Below, piece by piece: positions 8,161-19,201 of a stretch of 36,039 nucleotides of DNA. The stretch spans positions 1 through 36,039 of the forward strand of contig DVMA01000021.1 of assembly GCA_018715195.1 (NCBI GenBank), written 5' to 3'. The notes beneath the pieces were generated by a model. The model saw only the letters and a program-made list of their open reading frames with translations. It had not been told where the DNA came from and ran no database searches. Position 1 is the stretch's first letter; every line of letters starts with the position of its first letter. The DNA is from Candidatus Coproplasma excrementavium. GTDB taxonomy: Bacteria; Bacillota; Clostridia; Christensenellales; Borkfalkiaceae. A program made the translations under genes and the position numbers.

Positions 8161-9588
8161 TCAGCCTTTCTTTTCTTCGTCCGCGGGAGTTTCCTTTTTA
8201 TTCTTTCCGCTGCCGCTGGAATAGGCAAGGTAAGCTACGCCCGCTATGACAATTACAACTATTACGATTATAAGCACAACCGTTAAAATGACGTTGTCTT
8301 CGGAATAGTTTTCGGGAGTCTGGGGTTCGCCAAAGTCGCCGTCCTCGCCCGAAAAATCGTACGCGGTGAGAAATGACGTGGCTATATATCCCTCAATCTG
8401 CTGACCGTCTGCCGCGGTGTAGGTTACTTTGCAGAAGTTTGCCGCCAACGCGCCCAGTACCGAGGTCTGTTGCGAGGCAACTATCTCTTCAGATACCGTA
8501 ACTTTTGCGCCCGGCTCAAGCTGTATAAGTTCGGTCGCGTCGCACATGTACGGCGAACTGTATATCCCAGCCGCATAGTTGAGCTGTGCGCCCGTAAATT
8601 GCGGAACGGTGGTTATAGCCGTCTGCGGAGAGTCGGTTTTCAGCGTTATATATGACTTTTCGCCTATCGCAACTATGTCGGCGTTGCCCGTGGTGCAGAG
8701 TATGAGTGCGGGGGTGTCCTTTTCCAGACGGAACGTTCCGCCCTCGGCTACCTTGAAATATTGTCCGCTCAGGTCGGAGAGGTCTATCTCGGTGACATAC
8801 TTATTGCTTGCCAGCATTGTGAAAGTTACGTCCCTTGTCTGCTTCAAAAGCTCCGCAGTGTCGCCCGTCGCTATCGTTTCCGAATGGGAGACATCGGTAT
8901 ATCTGAACTTTACGGGCGTTACGCTTACCAGCGAGTCCGTTCCTCTTTCAATGTAGCAAAGGCCGCCGTCCATAATGGCATAAGCGCCGTTCACGGCCTC
9001 CTGCAGACAGGAAAAAGTGCTGTCAGGTGCGGGCTTTACGGGAACCGAATCGGCGGACGAGGTGTCCATTGCAAGAAGAGTGCCGTCCGCTATATACAAC
9101 AGAATGTCGCCGTAAAAAATACGCTCTTTCTGCGCGGCGGGCGCGCTCTCCGATTGCGTGGCCTTGCCGTCAGAATAGCTGTAATCGGCGCCCGTTGCGT
9201 CGGTAAACAGCAGACTGCCTTCGGCATAGCCAAGGTTTACTATCGTGCTGGTGTGTCTGTATGCGTAGATGTTATCCTCCGTGGAGTTTGTCATCACGCC
9301 GCCTTCAAAGTAGTAAGAAAAGCCGCCCTGACCGTCGGACTGGGGAGTCTTGCTCATACTGCCGCCCGAATATATGAATATATATTCATCGCGCGAGAAC
9401 GCAAATTCGTTTTCACCTACGGCGTAACAATCTATGTCGCCCGTCTCCAGATCGGATACAAAGTCGGGGTAGATTGTCTGGCTCTCCTCGGCGTTTGCAT
9501 ATTGAGTTTTTATGCCTGTCGCGGCCGCGCATACCGTACAAGTGGTAAATGTTGCGGCGGCGAGAAGTGCAATTGCAAATCTTTTCAC
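8161..9588 (-). CDS. Secreted, C-terminally membrane-anchored protein of unknown function
   Basis: 475 aa from GTG; N-terminal signal peptide 'FAIALLAAATFTTCTVCAAA'; C-terminal TM 'VILTVVLIIVIVVIVIAGVAYLAY' then Lys/Glu-rich tail. Confidence 0.82.
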   Translation of the reverse strand: MKRFAIALLAAATFTTCTVCAAATGIKTQYANAEESQTIYPDFVSDLETGDIDCYAVGENEFAFSRDEYIFIYSGGSMSKTPQSDGQGGFSYYFEGGVMTNSTEDNIYAYRHTSTIVNLGYAEGSLLFTDATGADYSYSDGKATQSESAPAAQKERIFYGDILLYIADGTLLAMDTSSADSVPVKPAPDSTFSCLQEAVNGAYAIMDGGLCYIERGTDSLVSVTPVKFRYTDVSHSETIATGDTAELLKQTRDVTFTMLASNKYVTEIDLSDLSGQYFKVAEGGTFRLEKDTPALILCTTGNADIVAIGEKSYITLKTDSPQTAITTVPQFTGAQLNYAAGIYSSPYMCDATELIQLEPGAKVTVSEEIVASQQTSVLGALAANFCKVTYTAADGQQIEGYIATSFLTAYDFSGEDGDFGEPQTPENYSEDNVILTVVLIIVIVVIVIAGVAYLAYSSGSGKNKKETPADEEKKG

Positions 9589-9624: not shown

Positions 9625-10125
9625 GATTTTTAAAAGTTTGTTGATAAATAAAAAATCGTATGCGCGCGCATATTGTCGAATGCAAATTTTTTCCTTTTTC
9701 AGCTGAAACGGGCGCGGGGGCTGCCGAAATGGCTGGGTGTGGCCGAAAACTGTGAAAATTGCGAAGATATCAGAAGGAATGGGGAAGGCGTGCGGCTATG
9801 GGGGAATGGGTAAAGGGGTGTGTCAGGTTTGAAATGTGCGGCAAAAGGCGGCTGAACAGCAACTTTAATGTTTTCAGAAAGCAAGTTTGACGGCCGAAAA
9901 ACTTCTTCAGCAGGGTGAAATGCGGTTCGTACAGAAATAAAATTTCATTATGCTTCCCGAAAAGGTACTTTAACGTCCCGAAAAGTCCCTCCGTACGCAA
10001 AAATAACAAATTTTTTCATAAAAAAAGTAAGAAAATTTTTTTAATTATGAACTTTTTGTCAGGTTTATCGGTTATAATCAAATTGTCAAAAGCAAACATA
10101 TGTTTGTATGCGGGAATTGCGAGAT

Positions 10126-10509
10126 ATGAATGTAAAAAAGGTTTTAAAGTTTTATTTCGGTGCTGACAGAGCGGAGGGGCTTCTGGACAGACTTATTTTA
10201 AAAAAGGCTTACAGTGCGGACTGTACGCGCGGGGCGCAGCAATGCGCGGAAGAGGTTGCAAAGCTTGTTCAGGCCAAGTGTGAAATGTGCAGGTTCTACG
10301 GCTTTATAGACAGAGTGCTTGCTCGTCTGAACGAAAGAGAGCGCGGCGTGCTTGAAAAGTATGCCACCCGCTCCGCCGCCAGCCTTGCGCCCGACGAGTG
10401 CAGGGAGGCGCACAGACTTTCCGTGGCGTTTGCCCGCCGCATAAAGGGATGTTCGGAAAAGTTTGCCGCGGGACTGCGCATAGCGCTCTGTTACAGCTTT
10501 CAGGCATGA
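10126..10509 (+). CDS. Small protein with HTH/sigma-region-4-like C-terminal half, possible regulator
   Basis: ORF 10108-10509; 'RVLARLNERERGVLEKYATR...LAPDECREAHRLSVAFARRIKG' resembles sigma70-r4/ArpU-type helices; start ATG 10126 or 10108; TATAAT at 10073-10078 upstream. Confidence 0.55.
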   Translation: MNVKKVLKFYFGADRAEGLLDRLILKKAYSADCTRGAQQCAEEVAKLVQAKCEMCRFYGFIDRVLARLNERERGVLEKYATRSAASLAPDECREAHRLSVAFARRIKGCSEKFAAGLRIALCYSFQA

Positions 10510-10703: not shown

Positions 10704-11402
10704 TCAGCTCTGTGTGCGGTTTTTGCTCTTCTTGCCGGAGAGCAAAACTATAGCAGCGGCAAGCACGGCCAGTGCGCCTATCGCGCAGAATGCCACAACC
10801 GTGCCCGCCGCGGGAGATTTGCCGGGCGTTTCCTCTTCCTCGTTCTTTTCGGGAAGAATGAGGGGGTAATCTTCATTTGCCCCCGCAATATAGCCGAACG
10901 AATCGTTGTAAAGTACGTACGAATACCCCGCCGCGCCACTGTAATATGAACCGTAAAACGCCGCCGTGACGGTAATGTCCTCTATCACGGGCAGATTTCC
11001 CGAAGGGGAGTCCTGCGAAAAGGTTACGCTTACCGATTTGTATAAAAACACCGTTTCGGGCGGCTCGGTGAGAAGAGTGAATTCGCTTTTCCGCACATAG
11101 CCGTAAAGGGCGCGGTATATGCCGAAATCATCGGCGTATTTTACGCGGTACCACTCGCCCTCCTCGCCAAGTACTTCCACGCAGTAGGTGTACGGCACGG
11201 CGAATATTCCCGTGGCCGCGTCAGCCGAGGTGCAGAAGTATGCCGTGCGCGAATCCGACCGCGCATATGTGGCATTTACCGAGCTCTGCGGTGGCGAAAT
11301 CGTGCTTTCCGCCGCGGCGTATTCTGTTGTACGCGCCGCATACGGCGCACAAAAAAGCGTTAACGCGGCAATCGCTGCCGCAACCGCAGCCAATCCTTTC
11401 AT
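10704..11402 (-). CDS. Secreted, C-terminally membrane-anchored protein with SH3-like region
   Basis: 232 aa; signal peptide 'LAAVAAAIAALTLFCAPYAA'; 'YCVEVLGEEGEWYRVKYADDFGIYRALYGYVRKSEFTLL' is SH3_3-like; C-terminal TM 'GTVVAFCAIGALAVLAAAIVLLSGKKSKNRTQS'. Confidence 0.8.
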   Translation of the reverse strand: MKGLAAVAAAIAALTLFCAPYAARTTEYAAAESTISPPQSSVNATYARSDSRTAYFCTSADAATGIFAVPYTYCVEVLGEEGEWYRVKYADDFGIYRALYGYVRKSEFTLLTEPPETVFLYKSVSVTFSQDSPSGNLPVIEDITVTAAFYGSYYSGAAGYSYVLYNDSFGYIAGANEDYPLILPEKNEEEETPGKSPAAGTVVAFCAIGALAVLAAAIVLLSGKKSKNRTQS

Positions 11403-11451: not shown

Positions 11452-11471
11452 ACATTATTTTGTAATAATGT
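11452..11471. promoter_or_regulatory. Perfect inverted repeat (candidate operator) upstream of the terminase gene
   Basis: ACATTATT-TTGT-AATAATGT, in the 79-bp divergent intergenic region, ending 10 bp before ATG 11482. Confidence 0.6.
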
Positions 11472-11481
11472 GAGGAATGCA

Positions 11482-12915
11482 ATGAGGGAGGATATTTTAA
11501 ACGCCGTAGCACGCATTGACCGCGAACTGGAAAAGCGGCGCGCCGATAATAAACTTTCCTGCTACAACGCGGGCAGAAAAAAACATAAAAAACAGCTGGC
11601 TTTCCACAAGTGCAAAAAACGCAACCGCTGGGTGTTCGGCGGCAACCGCTCGGGCAAGACGGAGTGCGGCGCCGTGGAGGCAATATGGATGGCCCGCGGA
11701 AATCACCCCTACCGCAAGAACAGAAAGGACGTGTTCGGCTGGGTGGTTTCCCTTTCGCAACAGGTTCAGCGCGATGTGGCTCAGGCCAAAATTTTATACT
11801 ATCTGCCCAAAAGCTGGATTGCCGATATCGTAATGCTCTCTGGCAGAAAGGACAGCCCCGCCGCGGGCGTCATCGACCAGATAAAGATAAAAAACGTCTT
11901 CGGCGGCATATCCACCATAGGTTTTAAAAGTTGCGACCAGGGCAGAGAAAAATTCCAGGGCGCATCGCTCGACTTCGTATGGTTCGACGAGGAGCCTCCG
12001 CAGGATATCTACGAAGAGTGCCTGATGAGGGTTATGGACAGGCGCGGCGACATATTCGGCACAATGACCCCGCTCAAGGGCCGCACATTCGTGTACGGAG
12101 AAATCTACTTAAACCGCAAGCACAATGCCGAGGTGTGGTACGAGTTCATGAACTGGGAGGATAATCCGTTCCTCTCCAAGAGCGAGATAAAACTGCTGGA
12201 AGGCGCGCTTGAAGGCTCTTCGCTGGACAGCCGAAAGTATGGCAGATTTTCCGAGGGGTACGGCCTCGTATACCCCGAATTTGACGAGAGCGTGCACGTA
12301 ATTGACCCGTTCGACGTGCCGAAGGAGTGGCAGGAGAACATTTCCATCGACCCAGGGCTGAACAACCCGCTCTCCGCGCACTGGTACTGCGTGGACTGGG
12401 ACGGCAACATCTACGTAATCGCCGAACACTTTGCCCAGGGCAGGGACATCGACTTCCACGCCGCCGCCATTCAGGAGATAAGCCGAAAACTCGGCTGGAA
12501 GAGAGATTCCTGCGGGCGCATTCAGGCGCTTATAGACAGCGCCGCAAATCAGCATACTCTCGCCTCGGTGAGCTCCGTTTCCGAACTCTTTTACGAGCGG
12601 GGCATTGCCGTGAATGCCAATGTGGACAAGGATGTGTTCAGCGGCATATCCCGCGTAAAAAGCTACCTTGCGCGGGACAACGGACTGCCGAACATCTACA
12701 TTTTCAGAAACTGCGAAAATATGATTTCGGAGTTCAAAAGTTACAGCTGGGGCGCGGGCGACAGACCGGTAAAGGTTGACGACCACGCCATGGACGAGCT
12801 CAGGTACTTTATAATGAGCCGTCCTCTCCCCGCAAAGGCGCAGGAAAGCGTCGGCGCGGTGAGAAGGGACAAGGAGCGCAGAATAAGGAGGTTACACAGA
12901 AAAATTGAGCGATGA
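11482..12915 (+). CDS. Phage terminase large subunit
   Basis: Walker A 'VFGGNRSGKTE', Walker B 'LDFVWFDEEPP', 'GTMTPLKG' coupling motif, nuclease-like acidic motifs 'SIDPGLNNP', 'ALIDSAA', 'VDDHAMDELRY'; start ATG 11482. Confidence 0.95.
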   Translation: MREDILNAVARIDRELEKRRADNKLSCYNAGRKKHKKQLAFHKCKKRNRWVFGGNRSGKTECGAVEAIWMARGNHPYRKNRKDVFGWVVSLSQQVQRDVAQAKILYYLPKSWIADIVMLSGRKDSPAAGVIDQIKIKNVFGGISTIGFKSCDQGREKFQGASLDFVWFDEEPPQDIYEECLMRVMDRRGDIFGTMTPLKGRTFVYGEIYLNRKHNAEVWYEFMNWEDNPFLSKSEIKLLEGALEGSSLDSRKYGRFSEGYGLVYPEFDESVHVIDPFDVPKEWQENISIDPGLNNPLSAHWYCVDWDGNIYVIAEHFAQGRDIDFHAAAIQEISRKLGWKRDSCGRIQALIDSAANQHTLASVSSVSELFYERGIAVNANVDKDVFSGISRVKSYLARDNGLPNIYIFRNCENMISEFKSYSWGAGDRPVKVDDHAMDELRYFIMSRPLPAKAQESVGAVRRDKERRIRRLHRKIER

Positions 12916-13174
12916 AGGAGTGAAAAAAGCGCTCATCCGCTGCGCCGTGGGGTTCGATACCAGCGAGGTGGTCGAAGAGTACACGATGGATGAGGGCGAA
13001 CTTAAACTTGTGAAGAGAAAGGTCACCCGCCGCGACGTTCCGCCCGATATCAAGGCGGTGAAGATGCTGCTGGACGGGGAGGGCGACATTGACGGTATGA
13101 GCGACGAGGAACTTCAGGAGCGCAGAAAAAAACTTATTGAAATGTTAAAGGAGAACAACGATGAACAGGACTGA
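12905..13174 (+). CDS. Small acidic phage-associated protein of unknown function
   Basis: 89 aa, TTG start, overlaps terminase end and portal start. Confidence 0.65.
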   Translation: MSDEGVKKALIRCAVGFDTSEVVEEYTMDEGELKLVKRKVTRRDVPPDIKAVKMLLDGEGDIDGMSDEELQERRKKLIEMLKENNDEQD

Positions 13175-14945
13175 TTTTTCAGACGAAAAGGCCAAGGCGG
13201 AGGCGCGGCTTGCGCAAGAGGTGGAGGACGACTTCCTCTCCCGCCGCGCAGACCGCAAAAAGCTTGAACGCGGCTGGGAACTCAATATGGACTTTGTCAG
13301 CGGCAGACAGTACTGCGGCATAAACTCCGCGGGCGAGATTGAGGAGGAGGAAAAGGCGTACGGCTGGCAGCCGAGGCGGGTATTCAACCGGATTGCTCCC
13401 ACCGTGGAGTTAAGGTGCGCCAAGCTTGCGCGCATCCGTCCCGCTCTATCCGTGAGGGCGGCCTCCGACGACGAGGCAGACAAGGCCGCCGCGGCGCTCT
13501 CTGCGGCAATACTCTCTTCTTCGAGGGAGAGTTCGGGGCTGGAAGAGGCGCTCTCCCGCGCGACTACCTGGTCGGAAACGTGCGGCACTGCCTTTTACAA
13601 GGTGGTGTGGGACAACGGCGGCGGCGCCGTGATTGGCCGCACAGAGGACGATATCCCCGTGCACGAGGGCGGCGTTAAGGTCGTGGCGGTGTCGCCGTTC
13701 GAAATCTATCCCTACTCCCTCGCCGAGGAGAGCATAGAGGCGCAGCCCTCGATAATTCAGGCGCGCGCCCTGCCCGTGCAGGACATATTCGCCGCGTACG
13801 GCGTAAAACTTGCAGGCAGGGACATAGAACAGTACGGCGGCGGCAAGACCGTTCAGCACGGATACGAGATGCTCATCGAACGCTACATGCGGCCGTGCGC
13901 CGACCTGCCCGACGGCAGATATACCGTGGTTGCGGGCGGCAGACTGCTATATGACGGGCCTCTGCCCTATAAAAACGGCGAGGACGGTCAGCGCGGATAT
14001 CCCTTCGTAAAACAGCAGTGCATGCCGCTTGCGGGCAGCTTTTTCGGCGCGAGCGTGGCCGAGAGAATGATTCCCGTTCAGCGCGCTTACAACGCCGTGC
14101 GCAACAGAAAACACGAGTTTCTCAACCGCATATCCATGGGTACCGTGGCCGTGGAGGAGGGCTCGGTGGATACGGAGGACCTGGAAGAGGACGGTCTGCG
14201 ACCCGGCAAGATAATAGTATACCGTCAGGGCGGCAAGCCGCCCGAAATGCTGACGCTTGGCACGCTGCCCGAATCGTTTGAAAAGGAGGAACAGACCCTC
14301 CGCGACGAGTTCGCCGCAATTTCAGGCACGGGCGACCTCACGCAGAACGGCGATTCCTTCTCTTCGGTTACTTCGGCCACGGGATTGCAGCTGCTCGTCG
14401 AGCAGGACGACGCCCGACTCAATGTGTGCTACGACAGCATAAAGCAGGCGCTCAGGGCGGTCGGCCGTCAGATACTCCGTCTTTACAGACAGTTCGCCAC
14501 CGATGTCCGCCTTCTGGAGGGCGCGTGCTTTACGGGCTGCGACATAACGTGCGACGACGTTATTCTGGAGGCGGACAGCGACATCAACCTCACCCCCGCG
14601 GAGAGGCGCAACGTGGTGTACGAACTTATCGACAAGGGACTTTTAAGCGACGAGAGCGGCAACGTAAGCCGTTCGGTGAAGAACAGAGTGCTGGAATTCA
14701 TTGGCTACGGCGCTTTTGCCTCGGGACGCGACCTTGCACGCATGCAGGCCGAACGCGCCGACGAGGAGAACAAAAAGATGTGTTCGGAGGAGGCGGCGGT
14801 CAACGAGTATGACGACCACTCCGTTCATATAAGCGAACATACGGCCTTTCTGCTTTCCCGCAAGGCGGACAAAGCTACGGAAGAGCGCGTGTGCGCGCAC
14901 ATAAAAATTCATAAACAAAAAATCAAGGAGGAACAGAATGGATAA
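13161..14945 (+). CDS. Phage portal protein (P22-like type)
   Basis: 594 aa; 'RRADRKKLERGWELNMDFVSGRQY', 'WQPRRVFNRIAPTVELRCAKLARIRPALSVRA', 'ERMIPVQRAYNAVRNRKHEFLNR', 'ATGLQLLVEQDDARLNVCYDSIKQALRAVGRQILRLYRQFA'. Confidence 0.88.
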   Translation: MNRTDFSDEKAKAEARLAQEVEDDFLSRRADRKKLERGWELNMDFVSGRQYCGINSAGEIEEEEKAYGWQPRRVFNRIAPTVELRCAKLARIRPALSVRAASDDEADKAAAALSAAILSSSRESSGLEEALSRATTWSETCGTAFYKVVWDNGGGAVIGRTEDDIPVHEGGVKVVAVSPFEIYPYSLAEESIEAQPSIIQARALPVQDIFAAYGVKLAGRDIEQYGGGKTVQHGYEMLIERYMRPCADLPDGRYTVVAGGRLLYDGPLPYKNGEDGQRGYPFVKQQCMPLAGSFFGASVAERMIPVQRAYNAVRNRKHEFLNRISMGTVAVEEGSVDTEDLEEDGLRPGKIIVYRQGGKPPEMLTLGTLPESFEKEEQTLRDEFAAISGTGDLTQNGDSFSSVTSATGLQLLVEQDDARLNVCYDSIKQALRAVGRQILRLYRQFATDVRLLEGACFTGCDITCDDVILEADSDINLTPAERRNVVYELIDKGLLSDESGNVSRSVKNRVLEFIGYGAFASGRDLARMQAERADEENKKMCSEEAAVNEYDDHSVHISEHTAFLLSRKADKATEERVCAHIKIHKQKIKEEQNG

Positions 14946-15369
14946 CCTGACGGAGGAATTACAGGGTACGGCAAACCCCGCGGAGGCGGAAAAAAGTGAT
15001 TGCGTTGCGGCAGACCTTGGAAAATTCAAAGACGTAAAGGCCCTTTTGAACGCTTATGCCAGCCTGGAGGCCGAATTCACCCGACGCAGTCAGAGGCTGA
15101 AGGAGCTGGAAGAGAAGAACAAGGAGCCGCTGCCCGCTGAGCAGTCGGCGCCCTCTTCGGCGGAAAATGACGCGCGCTCGCTGTACGAGCAGGCAAGCGG
15201 CGACGAGGCGGTTAAAACCGCCATAATCGCCGACTATCTCAAGGCCGTGCAGTCGGGCAGGGGCGCGCCCGTGGTGGCGGGCGGCATATTCGTGCCGTCG
15301 CCCAAAAACAAGCCTGTCAGCATAAGAGAAGCAGGCAGGCTGGCTAAGGAATTTTTAAACAATAATTGA
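14938..15369 (+). CDS. Putative phage scaffolding protein
   Basis: 143 aa between portal and capsid; acidic and helical, 'LGKFKDVKALLNAYASLEAEFTRRSQRLKELEEKNKE'. Confidence 0.65.
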   Translation: MDNLTEELQGTANPAEAEKSDCVAADLGKFKDVKALLNAYASLEAEFTRRSQRLKELEEKNKEPLPAEQSAPSSAENDARSLYEQASGDEAVKTAIIADYLKAVQSGRGAPVVAGGIFVPSPKNKPVSIREAGRLAKEFLNNN

Positions 15370-15382
15370 GGAGGAGAAAAAT

Positions 15383-16525
15383 TTGATTACTATTGAAAAT
15401 GCCGATAAGGCTCTCAAAACTTATTACCTGGACGCGGTAACCGCGCAGCTCGACGCCGTTTCGCCCTTCTATGCCGCCGTTGAAAAGAACAGCGCGGCCG
15501 TCTACGGCAAGGAAGTAAAACTGGCCGTAGTGAGAAACGACAACAACCGCGTGGTTGCCGGCACCGAGGACGGCGACCTTCCCGTAGCGGGCAAAAACAG
15601 GTACGTCACCCTTACGTCCACGCTCAAAAACATCTATGGCACAATTGAAATTTCAGATAAGGCCATGCGCGCTTCAAAAAATTCCGAAGGCGCGTTCGTC
15701 GACCTCGTAAATGCCGAAATGGAGGGCCTTGTCACAAGCGCCAAGGCTAACTTCTCGCGCATGCTCTACGGCGACGGCAACGGCTACATCGGCCTCATCA
15801 TAAAGACGGAGGAATCCAAGCTATATGTGGACAACATAGGCAGAATTTACGAGGGCATGGCCGTAGATATCAGAAGCAACACCATGGTGGTCGAAGGCGG
15901 CGAAAACGTAACCGTCGCCAGCGTGGACTACGCCAACGGCTGCATCACCCTTTCGCAGACCGTTTCCGGCACGCTTGTGGGTAAGTTCGTCTACATACAC
16001 GGCGCGTACGGCAACGAAATAACAGGTTTCAAGGCGCTCTTCGGCACCGACGACATCTACGGTCTTTCGCGTGAGGGCGAGGGATATCTCACCCCTTCGA
16101 CGTTTAATGTGACTTCCATAACCGAGGCGGAAATTGCCGAAAAGATAAGCTTCCTCGAACAGTACTACAACAGTCGCCCCAACATGATTCTCTGCTCCTA
16201 TAAGACCAGGGCGGCGATTGCCGCGGCCCTTGCGGAATCGCGCATGCAGGTCAACACCACCGTGCTGCAGGGCGGTTATTCCGCCGTTCTGTTCGACGGC
16301 ATTCCCGTGGTTGCGGACAGGTACTGCGAGGACGACAACATATATCTTCTCAACACCGACGACTTCTGCATAGCGCAGCTGTGCGACTGGTCGTGGCTGG
16401 AGGACGAGGACGGTAAAATCTTAAAGCAGGTGCCCGGCAAGGCGGCTTACAGCGCAACGCTTGTAAAGTATGCCGAACTCATCTGCAAAAAACCCTGCGG
16501 TCAGGGCATCATAACGGGATATTGA
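15383..16525 (+). CDS. Phage major capsid protein (HK97-fold type)
   Basis: 380 aa, TTG start after GAGGAGG; 'YGKEVKLAVVRNDNNRVVAGTEDGDLPVAGKNRYVTLTSTLKNIYGTIEISDKAMRASKNSEGAFVDLVNAEMEGLVTSAKANFSRMLYGDGNG'; lies downstream of portal and scaffold. Confidence 0.88.
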   Translation: MITIENADKALKTYYLDAVTAQLDAVSPFYAAVEKNSAAVYGKEVKLAVVRNDNNRVVAGTEDGDLPVAGKNRYVTLTSTLKNIYGTIEISDKAMRASKNSEGAFVDLVNAEMEGLVTSAKANFSRMLYGDGNGYIGLIIKTEESKLYVDNIGRIYEGMAVDIRSNTMVVEGGENVTVASVDYANGCITLSQTVSGTLVGKFVYIHGAYGNEITGFKALFGTDDIYGLSREGEGYLTPSTFNVTSITEAEIAEKISFLEQYYNSRPNMILCSYKTRAAIAAALAESRMQVNTTVLQGGYSAVLFDGIPVVADRYCEDDNIYLLNTDDFCIAQLCDWSWLEDEDGKILKQVPGKAAYSATLVKYAELICKKPCGQGIITGY

Positions 16526-16685
16526 TGGCCTTTTAACGCCGTAAAAACCGCATTCGTCAGGCCATATTGCCGCACCTTTTGAATTTTATGCCATTTTTCC
16601 CCTTTTCTTCGGCGAACGGGCGGAAATGACGGTCTGAAAGTGCGTTGTCTGCGGCATATTACCGCACCAATTGAGTTATTTAAGC

Positions 16686-16714
16686 CTGCGCGCGGGGCAA
16701 GGCCCCGCGCGCAG
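16686..16714 (+). promoter_or_regulatory. Perfect 13-bp hairpin in the capsid-adaptor spacer, just upstream of a ribosome-binding site
   Basis: CTGCGCGCGGGGC-AAG-GCCCCGCGCGCAG; no following T run; AAGGAGG at 16721. Confidence 0.75.
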
Positions 16715-16735
16715 AATAATAAGGAGGAAAAAACT

Positions 16736-17296
16736 TTGCTCGTATCCGATATTGTAAAAACCGCGCTCTCGCTGGTCGGCAGAGAGGACGCCGCCGCGGC
16801 CATTGACGGCGGGGAATATGAAGCCGATTCGTCCCTTTCGCAGGCCGTGCGCACTATGCTCTACTGCGCCAACGCCGTGGAGGACGAGCTCGCCCGCGGC
16901 GCCTTCCCGCTGGAGAGAGAAGAGGTGCTCAACGCGGTGAACGGAAGAATATATTACGTAAACTTTTACCGCACTCCCGTAAAAATACTTTCCGTAAAGA
17001 GCGGGGATAAAAAAATTGCATACAAAATGAGCCCCGAATATCTTGAAACCAACGGCCGCAATCTCACCATAAAATACATCTATTGTCCCGAGAAAAAGGA
17101 ACTTGACGGCGAGAGCGAGTACGACGGTTACCCCGTGGGCGAAAGATTGCTTGCCTACGGCGCGGCGGCCGAATACTGCCTTATTGAGGGCGCGTTCGAG
17201 GAGGCGGAAAACTGGGAGAAGAGGTATCGCGAGGAGGTCGAGCGCGTCCGCCCCTTCGATAAGCGCGGGTATATTCCCTCGCGGGTGTGGGAATGA
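16736..17296 (+). CDS. Phage head-tail adaptor-like protein
   Basis: TTG start after AAGGAGG; 'LTIKYIYCPEKKELDGESEYDGYPVGERLLAYGAAAEYCLIEGAFEEAENWEKRYREEVERV' resembles podoviral adaptor/gp4-like proteins; position after the capsid gene. Confidence 0.6.
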   Translation: MLVSDIVKTALSLVGREDAAAAIDGGEYEADSSLSQAVRTMLYCANAVEDELARGAFPLEREEVLNAVNGRIYYVNFYRTPVKILSVKSGDKKIAYKMSPEYLETNGRNLTIKYIYCPEKKELDGESEYDGYPVGERLLAYGAAAEYCLIEGAFEEAENWEKRYREEVERVRPFDKRGYIPSRVWE

Positions 17297-18510
17297 GGTA
17301 CGTTGAACGCTCCACGCCCTTTGCCTGCGCGGATGTCAAAACTTACGACCTTCTAGACGGTGGCACGCTCTTCGGACTGAAAAGATGCGGGGAGGAGCTG
17401 GTGCCTGCTTTCGCCCTCTCGCCGCTCACCCTTTTAAACATTCCCGCGGCGGCGCAAAGGGCCTATCTTTCGGCAAAAGGCAACCTCTATCTCTACGGCG
17501 ACGGAGCGGTGTACCGCTCCATGAAGGCGTACGCCAACTTTATTAAACCGGGCGTAACCTTTGCGGGCGTACCCTCGTTTACGGAGGTGAACGGCGGCGA
17601 AATGCTCGTCTACGACGGCCAGACTACCCTGCGCGTCACTTCCAGTCTGATGGAGCCGATAAACGCTTCGCCCGTGGTGAACGGAGCTTTCCACTATTCC
17701 CGCCTTTTCGGTGTGGACAGCTCGGACGAATATACAATCAGATGGTCGGCTCCCGACAATGTAAGACAGTGGACGGAGGAGCTGAACGGCGCGGGACATA
17801 TGCGCCTGCCTTCCCTCCGCGGCGGCGTGCTCAGACTTATCTCCTATGACGGCAAACTGGTGGCAGTGCGCAGATACGGGCTCACGCTGCTCAGAATTTA
17901 CGGAGATGTGCAGGACTTCCGCGTGGAGGTTACCGATACCGATACCGATGAAATGGTTGAGGGTACCGCCATCGTATGTGCGGGCAAGCTGGTGTTCTTT
18001 ACCGTCTCGGGGCTGTATGCCTTTGAAAGTAAAGTGAAAGCGTATGCAAAGGAGCAGCTTGGCGGCTTCGTTCCGTCGGGCAGCGTGGCTGCGTGGGGCA
18101 ATGTGTTGCTCGCATGCGGTCAGCTTGAAGGTCGCGGCGTAATTGCCTGCATCGACTGCGAAAACGAGGAGGTCAGCTACATAGAACTTGCCGCAACCTG
18201 CGTATGCGCGGCGGGCAGAGCCTTCTGTTTCTGTCAGGGGACTGTATACGAAATAGTGCGCGGCGCGGGCGGCGGAGCGTGGGAAAGCGGTCCCTGCAAT
18301 TTCGGCAGCTGTGCCGAAAAATATCTCGAAAGCGTGGATGTGGATGGTACGGCCGAAAGTTTAAGCATTTCAAGCGGCAACAGACAGCGCACCTTCCACG
18401 CCGTCAGCGGCCGCATAAAGGTGGATATGGCGGGTCGGGAATTTACCTTCCGCGCCGACTGCGAAAACGGCCTTAAATTTCTGTGCGCACGCTACGCGGT
18501 CAGGAGGTGA
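17293..18510 (+). CDS. Phage structural protein, possibly tail hub/stopper (P22 gp10-like beta-propeller)
   Basis: 406 aa, ATGA overlap with previous gene; repeated beta-rich segments, including 'FHYSRLFGVDSSDEYTIRWSAPDNVRQW'; position after adaptor. Confidence 0.5.
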   Translation: MRYVERSTPFACADVKTYDLLDGGTLFGLKRCGEELVPAFALSPLTLLNIPAAAQRAYLSAKGNLYLYGDGAVYRSMKAYANFIKPGVTFAGVPSFTEVNGGEMLVYDGQTTLRVTSSLMEPINASPVVNGAFHYSRLFGVDSSDEYTIRWSAPDNVRQWTEELNGAGHMRLPSLRGGVLRLISYDGKLVAVRRYGLTLLRIYGDVQDFRVEVTDTDTDEMVEGTAIVCAGKLVFFTVSGLYAFESKVKAYAKEQLGGFVPSGSVAAWGNVLLACGQLEGRGVIACIDCENEEVSYIELAATCVCAAGRAFCFCQGTVYEIVRGAGGGAWESGPCNFGSCAEKYLESVDVDGTAESLSISSGNRQRTFHAVSGRIKVDMAGREFTFRADCENGLKFLCARYAVRR

Positions 18511-18513
18511 CGT

Positions 18514-19008
18514 ATGCAATTCGATATAATAGATATGACGGAAGAGGAACTTACGGCGCTCTCCACCGTACAGATGCGCCTGCTCCGCTCCGCCCAGCGC
18601 GAAAAGGACGAACTTACCGTAAAGCTGGCTGAAGATAAGCAGACCTTTTACAGCATTCTCATCTCCAACGGCACGTCGGATTCCTCTCTGTACGAAGACA
18701 AGTGTGCGGAGCTTGACGAGGCGTATCAGAGAGAGGTGGAGATAATAAAGGACGATCTGGTGTACAACATGTCGCTCAACGTTCCCACCGCGGACGACGA
18801 CAACCCCTCGGGCAGCGGCGAGGAAGTGGGGTACATTGTGGACTACTCGCTCAGTTATCTGGACAGATACCAGATTGTGCGCAACTACTATATGTCCATA
18901 GCCGACCCCGCGGAGCGCATTGCCGCCTATACCGCGGACGATACCGCAAAGGACTATCTGGGGCAGTACTATACCACGCTGTATAACGTGCTGTACCAGT
19001 ACATTTAA
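18514..19008 (+). CDS. Hypothetical protein, terminal gene of the phage cassette
   Basis: 164 aa, start 3 bp after the preceding stop with GGAGGTGA in the overlap; helical N-terminus. Confidence 0.6.
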   Translation: MQFDIIDMTEEELTALSTVQMRLLRSAQREKDELTVKLAEDKQTFYSILISNGTSDSSLYEDKCAELDEAYQREVEIIKDDLVYNMSLNVPTADDDNPSGSGEEVGYIVDYSLSYLDRYQIVRNYYMSIADPAERIAAYTADDTAKDYLGQYYTTLYNVLYQYI

Positions 19009-19167: not shown

Positions 19168-19201
19168 GCGGCGGCGGAAATTGTTTCCGCCGCCGCTTTT
19201 T
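19168..19201 (+). terminator. Intrinsic terminator closing the phage cassette
   Basis: GCGGCGGCGGAAA-TTG-TTTCCGCCGCCGC-TTTTT. Confidence 0.88.

Follow-up and report, generated by a model that had tools for sequence, protein, structure and literature searches.

To our knowledge, very few gene clusters for gene transfer agents (GTAs) are known outside the Alphaproteobacteria. In Gram-positive bacteria, only PBSX precedes FpGTA of Faecalibacterium in a 2026 count of GTA-like systems (PMC12946183). FpGTA heads of ~40 nm contain ~9 kb of host DNA, and the small terminase subunit (TerS) of FpGTA is described as being devoid of a DNA-binding domain (PMC12946183). The same holds for the TerS of RcGTA, whose authors tie the lack of the N-terminal DNA-binding domain to random packaging (PMC6854486). 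GTA-like packaging was also seen in Christensenellaceae, in 3 of 25 events, without identification of the genes (PMC12946183). Here, we describe a phage-derived cassette in a contig of 36,039 nt (the window, that is, the whole stretch analysed) of the 1.45-Mb metagenome-assembled genome (MAG) of Candidatus Coproplasma excrementavium, whose genus is listed under Eubacteriales incertae sedis by NCBI and in the order Christensenellales by GTDB. The cassette is probably the structural cluster of a putative GTA with podovirus-like particles, which descends from a short-tailed phage domesticated before the order diversified and is inherited with the chromosome. A literature search limited to open-licence papers found no earlier report of this cluster.

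Packaging, head and short-tail genes

The cassette consists of eight intact, tightly packed plus-strand genes (11482-19008) with a terminator at the end and housekeeping genes on either side; all eight contiguous open reading frames (ORFs) listed in a preceding sequence-only reading are present and intact. The ORFs and their order are real, well beyond chance, since dozens of genomes show an identical arrangement. In this order, the features are:

11482..12915, plus strand: TerL (terminase large subunit); Terminase_6N, phrog_2; invariant catalytic residues
12905..13174, plus strand: predicted TerS, C-terminal part only, without helix-turn-helix (HTH); alignment to the TerS of locus L076, PPD motif
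13161..14945, plus strand: portal, P22/SU10 type; P22_portal, SU10_portal, phrog_156
14938..15369, plus strand: scaffold-like protein, presumed from its position between portal and capsid
15383..16525, plus strand: major capsid protein; phrog_14242, NCBIfam capsid_maj_Podo
16736..17296, plus strand: predicted portal-tail adaptor; AlphaFold and Foldseek; TTG start
17287..18510, plus strand: predicted tail nozzle (hub), P22 gp10 type; AlphaFold and Foldseek against PDB, BFVD
18514..19008, plus strand: short coiled-coil protein, probable C-terminal remnant of DUF7934; weak PF25588 match
19168..19196, plus strand: intrinsic terminator closing the cassette, as noted before; 13-pair stem, 3-nt loop, TTTTTACTTT tail

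The identities of TerL, portal and capsid, previously read from the letters, were confirmed by profiles of Pfam, phrog and NCBIfam. TerL matched Terminase_6N with 4.6e-12 and phrog_2 with 8.7e-30, and its Walker A motif, Walker B motif and three acidic nuclease residues, already noted as catalytic motifs, are invariant in 19 sequences. A match to the model TIGR01547 was weak and below the cut-off. The gene starts with the ATG at 11482, and the longer ORF from 11188 is merely an upstream open frame. For the portal, the matches were P22_portal (4e-18), SU10_portal (5.8e-12) and phrog_156 (3.5e-35), and for the capsid protein phrog_14242 (7.8e-46) and capsid_maj_Podo (215.9 bits, cut-off 80). The scaffold-like protein found no match in the profile database scans; its gene keeps the place between portal and capsid in all families. 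At a few loci the capsid gene is present as a tandem duplicate (L040 10001-12374, L267 8035-10394 and L153), which suggests two capsid variants.

The ORF at 12905-13174 had been called a small acidic ORF, and a small terminase had been stated to be missing. This has to be revised, since the ORF of 89 amino acids aligns with the C-terminal half of a full-length TerS (phrog_309, 1.4e-26) of the basal relative L076 and has the conserved PPD motif; judged by this alignment, it is a predicted small terminase without its DNA-binding domain. A TerS homologue was present at 105 loci: it follows TerL at 93, stands without TerL on the same stretch at 11 and precedes TerL at one (L076). The N-terminal HTH is seen in L076 only; none of the other loci inspected has it. 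Loss of the DNA-targeting domain is consistent with random packaging of host DNA and would make it the most likely mode. The basal family of genome G048 retains the full-length, HTH-bearing TerS (L076 5592-6113) in phage order, possibly an intermediate of domestication.

The cassette had also been described as tail-less. Apparently, it is not, since folds of an adaptor and a nozzle were identified. The AlphaFold model of the adaptor, with a predicted local distance difference test score (pLDDT) of 89.1, had podophage adaptors as its best PDB matches in Foldseek: KHP30 (7wmp_m, 5.4e-6), Pa223, PhiM1 and SU10. The nozzle model (pLDDT 91.8) matched the podophage nozzles of Pa223 (9.0e-15), Pan3 and P22 (gp10, 9.4e-12) in the PDB and entries labelled 'P22 Gp10' in BFVD. 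Sequence profiles of both proteins against the PDB were uninformative, and the identities come from structure prediction. According to these models, the cassette encodes a short tail made of a predicted adaptor and a predicted P22 gp10-type nozzle, which gives substance to the former 'adaptor-like' and 'hub-like' calls; only the adaptor start had to be moved from 16640 to the TTG at 16736, which is preceded by AAGGAGG. A siphovirus-type tail gene set is absent: the capsid gene is followed only by adaptor, gp10-type nozzle and a short coiled-coil gene.

This last gene has a weak PF25588 match over profile positions 265-322. Relatives in other families have a full-length DUF7934 protein of ~310-330 amino acids at this place (1.7e-121), whereas a search of the Coproplasma genus for the full-length protein elsewhere found none, only the short form. 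The gene is thus seen as a C-terminal remnant of DUF7934, its product a candidate internal or ejection protein. Between the capsid and adaptor genes, at the place of a 120-aa gene of other families, lies a perfect 13-bp inverted repeat with a 3-nt loop and without a T run (16686-16714), perhaps a processing or attenuation hairpin. As stated before, the scan of the window genes revealed no integrase, repressor or replication gene; searches of the window for Rfam families and tRNAs gave no match.

Inheritance, wider unit and insertions

The surroundings are much as first read: a pentose/arabinose operon to the left, and methyltransferase, pseudouridine synthase and topoisomerase genes as well as grpE-dnaK-dnaJ to the right. 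The expectation that the cassette keeps its place in relatives held in large part. In 25 of 25 same-genus contigs that contain both flanks it lies between the gene of an SH3-domain protein and the methyltransferase gene, in the same orientation, and no larger, att-bounded prophage was seen, but one genome (G025) is cleanly without it. There, regulator, SH3 gene and cassette are all missing (L321 3353-6657) and the homologue of 8161-9588 is found ~100 bp from the methyltransferase gene. In G009, the contig ends at the cassette position. Of 36 same-genus genomes, 32 have the capsid gene, as a rule in single copy and without internal stops, and in two of the 32 it is broken; 33 matches had been reported, of which G034 was discounted as spurious (24%), while the G012 copy is fragmentary and that of G011 is split. 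ORF lengths are near-constant across ~29 same-genus loci. A class-wide sample showed the gene in 17 of the 22 genomes from the order and in 11 of ~370 from elsewhere.

The tree of the cassette core agrees with that of the host genes on its flanks: the two have 17 of 22 splits in common, against at most 3 in 1000 shuffles, and do not conflict at any strongly supported split (Mantel r 0.93). Against the unlinked rpoB, in 27 genomes of about ten families, 18 of 24 splits are shared and 20 of 21 strong splits are compatible (Mantel r 0.92); here, too, shuffled labels gave no more than 3 shared splits. The root in this comparison is by convention only, because genomes of family f66 from another order, rejected as a clean outgroup, themselves have the cluster, in split form and with a candidate TerS of the HTH type. 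dN/dS values (Nei-Gojobori; rough, because dS is near saturation) are far from neutral, in line with what had been expected of a retained module: 0.07-0.09 for TerL, 0.04-0.11 for TerS, 0.11-0.18 for the portal, 0.10-0.20 for the capsid protein, 0.10-0.28 for the adaptor and 0.25-0.41 for the nozzle, compared to 0.08-0.12 for the neighbouring host methyltransferase. Within the cassette, the nozzle gene is thus one of those that evolve fastest.

In f66 (L271-L274, L317-L319), one locus amid housekeeping genes has scaffold, capsid, the 120-aa gene, a gene of 176-179 aa and nozzle, another contig has TerL and the candidate HTH-type small terminase, and a portal was not found with the profiles used. 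This is a second, possibly independent split cluster.

Further features of the window bear on the extent of the unit and on insertions in relatives:

10108..10509, plus strand: candidate regulator gene; sigma-70 region 4-like phage transcription regulators as homologues in other families
10704..11402, minus strand: predicted secreted, membrane-anchored SH3-domain protein, divergent from TerL; weak SH3_3 match, hydrophobic ends
11455..11471, plus strand: conserved element upstream of TerL, candidate operator/promoter; alignment of SH3-TerL intergenic regions of the genus
16394..16498, plus strand: capsid codons 338-372, insertion target in relatives, intact in the window; junctions in L187, L283/G235, L070/G012, L170 and L145

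From the regulator to the last gene, the cluster spans ~8.9 kb. Regulator homologues in L310, L313 and L040 matched phrog_36 (down to 6.8e-12), DUF1492 (1.9e-7) and Sigma70_r4_2 (6.4e-6); the copy of the window can be aligned to them, with a weak HTH region, and may act as a regulator. The SH3 protein has an N-terminal hydrophobic signal, the weak SH3_3 match and a C-terminal hydrophobic stretch followed by Lys/Arg. Its gene adjoins TerL in the genus, in other families and in L040, and also where TerL stands apart from the head genes, in family f26. In this family, with reduced, ~100% complete genomes of 0.8-1.2 Mb, the cluster is divided over two loci, regulator-SH3-TerL and TerS-to-holins, which are 34-104 kb apart or on separate contigs. 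Their ORFs are intact (L310-L316; L262-L265, L268-L270) except for one TGA in the TerL of G319. Since the regulator and SH3 genes stay with TerL where the cluster is split, they form part of a unit with it. The element upstream of TerL reads TTATTTTGTCATAAAAG in relatives and TTATTTTGTAATAATGT in the window. In the genomes searched, it was found with 0-1 mismatches at cassette sites only, and matches elsewhere with two mismatches were at control level. It is likely an operator or promoter; a second co-regulated locus, sought with this element, was not found above control. Outside the family of the genus, the cluster additionally has the 120-aa gene in the capsid-adaptor gap, the full-length DUF7934 gene and two holins, of the BhlA and phage_holin_1 types.

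The closest capsid proteins of isolated phages (Arthrobacter and Microbacterium phages) are 23-25% identical, the closest TerL about 29%. A single-sequence capsid search of IMG/VR gave no match and an alignment-based search gave 75 relatives, most with the same gene order on short contigs; most of these would be pieces of host chromosomes called viral. Long IMG/VR contigs hold homologous capsid genes at <30% identity.

In relatives, prophages and defence islands have repeatedly integrated into the capsid gene at its 3' end, as is evident from shared junctions at codons 338 and 372. L187, G235 and G012 have one element terminus in common, joined to codon 338, and a common left-end motif follows codon 372 in L170, L187, L145 and L188. 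In G235, an island with Thoeris and a C5-methyltransferase replaces the stretch from the end of TerL to the capsid gene. The IMG/VR record G449 (L170/L398/L399) has a phage of ~55 kb, with tail-fibre and holin genes and two large serine recombinases, between the capsid gene and the 120-aa, adaptor and nozzle genes, and its cluster is therefore split. Inserts at this site, also in L160 and L167, are either prophages with one or two large serine recombinases or islands that carry genes for Thoeris, Mrr, a C5 methyltransferase or type I restriction. TerL may be another insertion site, since in L163 (1-7187) a TerL without its N-terminal part is directly preceded by phage-like genes, a gene for an amidase and one for a small membrane protein.

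A putative gene transfer agent and its alternatives

The GTA viriform definition used for comparison (PMC9662315) names three features that can be tested in genomes, and all three are found: particle proteins from tailed phages (TerL, portal and capsid families, adaptor and nozzle folds), full endogenisation, often at multiple loci (a fixed locus in the genus, two loci in f26), and mostly vertical inheritance with co-diversification (flank and rpoB trees). Three others, namely packaging of mostly random host DNA, a head too small for the GTA genes and delivery of DNA to other cells, need experiments, and hence the label 'putative GTA' is justified, but 'GTA' not yet. Synteny, dN/dS values and trees also support the sequence-only reading of a retained, domesticated GTA-like module, whose function we infer. 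In our model, the sigma-like regulator (10108-10509) would turn on the operon, probably in a small share of the cells, by way of the conserved element ahead of TerL, and a procapsid would be assembled from scaffold, portal and capsid proteins. TerL and the TerS without DNA-binding domain would then initiate packaging without sequence choice and the heads would be filled with host DNA (headful), to be closed by adaptor and P22 gp10-type nozzle as a short tail. Host cells would lyse, in relatives via the two holins of the same cluster; in Coproplasma, lysis genes may be elsewhere or lost. The DNA would be delivered to recipient cells, with which the fast-changing nozzle probably makes contact.

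Several points weigh against this model. The evidence for the agent is genomic, and neither a fibre nor a receptor-binding protein was identified. Convincing BhlA-type or phage_holin_1-like holins were found neither in the window genome nor in the Coproplasma genus. Among the other sampled families of the order, only 8 of 24 have the capsid gene, and the cluster is lost or broken in G025, G235 and G012. Furthermore, most genomes are incomplete MAGs, rpoB is the sole unlinked marker, and near-saturated dS blurs the dN/dS values.

That no fibre was identified, together with the fact that transfer by the cassette is deduced, would also suit a domesticated particle in which host DNA is packaged or simply enclosed, but from which it is not delivered, and which serves in killing or signalling, like PBSX of Bacillus subtilis. 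Fast evolution of the nozzle (dN/dS 0.25-0.41) would equally fit target recognition, and the same alternative was raised for FpGTA (PMC12946183). We nevertheless consider such a killer particle unlikely, since strong purifying selection acts on the full packaging set of TerL, TerS and portal, whereas a killer could do without efficient packaging. In addition, PBSX has a long phage tail, which is absent here. A simple nanocompartment was rejected, as the packaging motor is retained under strong selection.

An old but still mobile element is very improbable; this would be a temperate phage or a capsid-forming satellite whose infection of each host lineage gives the impression of co-divergence. 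The HTH-bearing full-length TerS in phage order of L076/G048 and the distant capsid homologues (<30% identity) in long IMG/VR contigs would fit it, but the locus is fixed in the genus, the cluster of f26 is divided over distant loci, the trees match those of the hosts for flanks and rpoB, and the best capsid match in isolated phages is only 23-25% identical. Neither a circular or excised form nor the same cassette at unrelated loci of close strains was seen. A temperate prophage was rejected because integrase, repressor and replication genes in an att-bounded element were not found among the window genes scanned, and a capsid-forming phage-inducible chromosomal island was rejected because integrase and replication genes were likewise not found there, the locus is fixed and the cassette has its own adaptor and nozzle. 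A decaying prophage remnant, intact here by chance, has a probability close to nil: phage origin is certain and broken copies exist in some relatives (G235, G011, G012), but near-constant ORF lengths in ~29 same-genus loci, purifying selection and co-divergence with hosts across families contradict decay. It was rejected on the flank-gene tree, dN/dS and the rpoB tree, as the sequence-only reading had anticipated from the intact frames.

Beyond the putative GTA of the genus, it is tempting to speculate, with chances somewhat short of even, that the cluster marks a GTA lineage which spans this order of uncultured Clostridia, arose independently of FpGTA and RcGTA and goes back to one domestication that predates the diversification of the order, in which motor and head genes parted in one family yet were both kept, and phages and islands land in the capsid gene and can break the GTA. 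As a GTA, the cluster would itself be a third, apparently old lineage in Gram-positive bacteria, in uncultured gut Clostridia, and it may contain the genes responsible for the GTA-like packaging in Christensenellaceae. The prophage inserts at the capsid gene suggest a conflict between phage and GTA, in which a prophage would be able to break the gene-transfer machine of its host.

Comparison with known systems

PBSX of Bacillus subtilis resembles the cassette as a chromosomally fixed set of phage-derived particle genes in Bacillota, with a weak TIGR01547 match of TerL in common, but it has another tail type and does not inject its DNA (PMC12946183). P22-like podoviruses share the folds of portal, adaptor and gp10-type nozzle; here, however, replication, lysogeny, tailspike and needle genes were not found and the chromosomal locus is fixed.

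The nearest known system, compared by its published description, is FpGTA (PMC12946183, 2026). It is likewise a podovirus-type, GTA-like cluster in Clostridia with a TerS without DNA-binding domain, TerL, portal, scaffold, capsid and short-tail proteins, it is genus-wide, and holin genes belong to the system, as they do to the cluster of other families here. FpGTA is found in another bacterial family and order; a 16S probe for Faecalibacterium was positive in 0 of 392 sampled genomes, many of them MAGs without 16S. Its TerS gene is upstream of TerL, whereas it follows TerL here, and it has a second operon with fibre, receptor-binding protein, holin and endolysin, while no second operon was found here.

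RcGTA and its relatives (Rhodogtaviriformidae) have a siphovirus-type tail and reside in Alphaproteobacteria, in contrast to the predicted short P22-like tail described here. Like the cluster here, they have a TerS without the N-terminal DNA-binding domain (PMC6854486), are passed on vertically through an order, evolve slowly and have genes at more than one locus. To these known systems, the cluster would add a further TerS without DNA-binding domain and a naturally split GTA.

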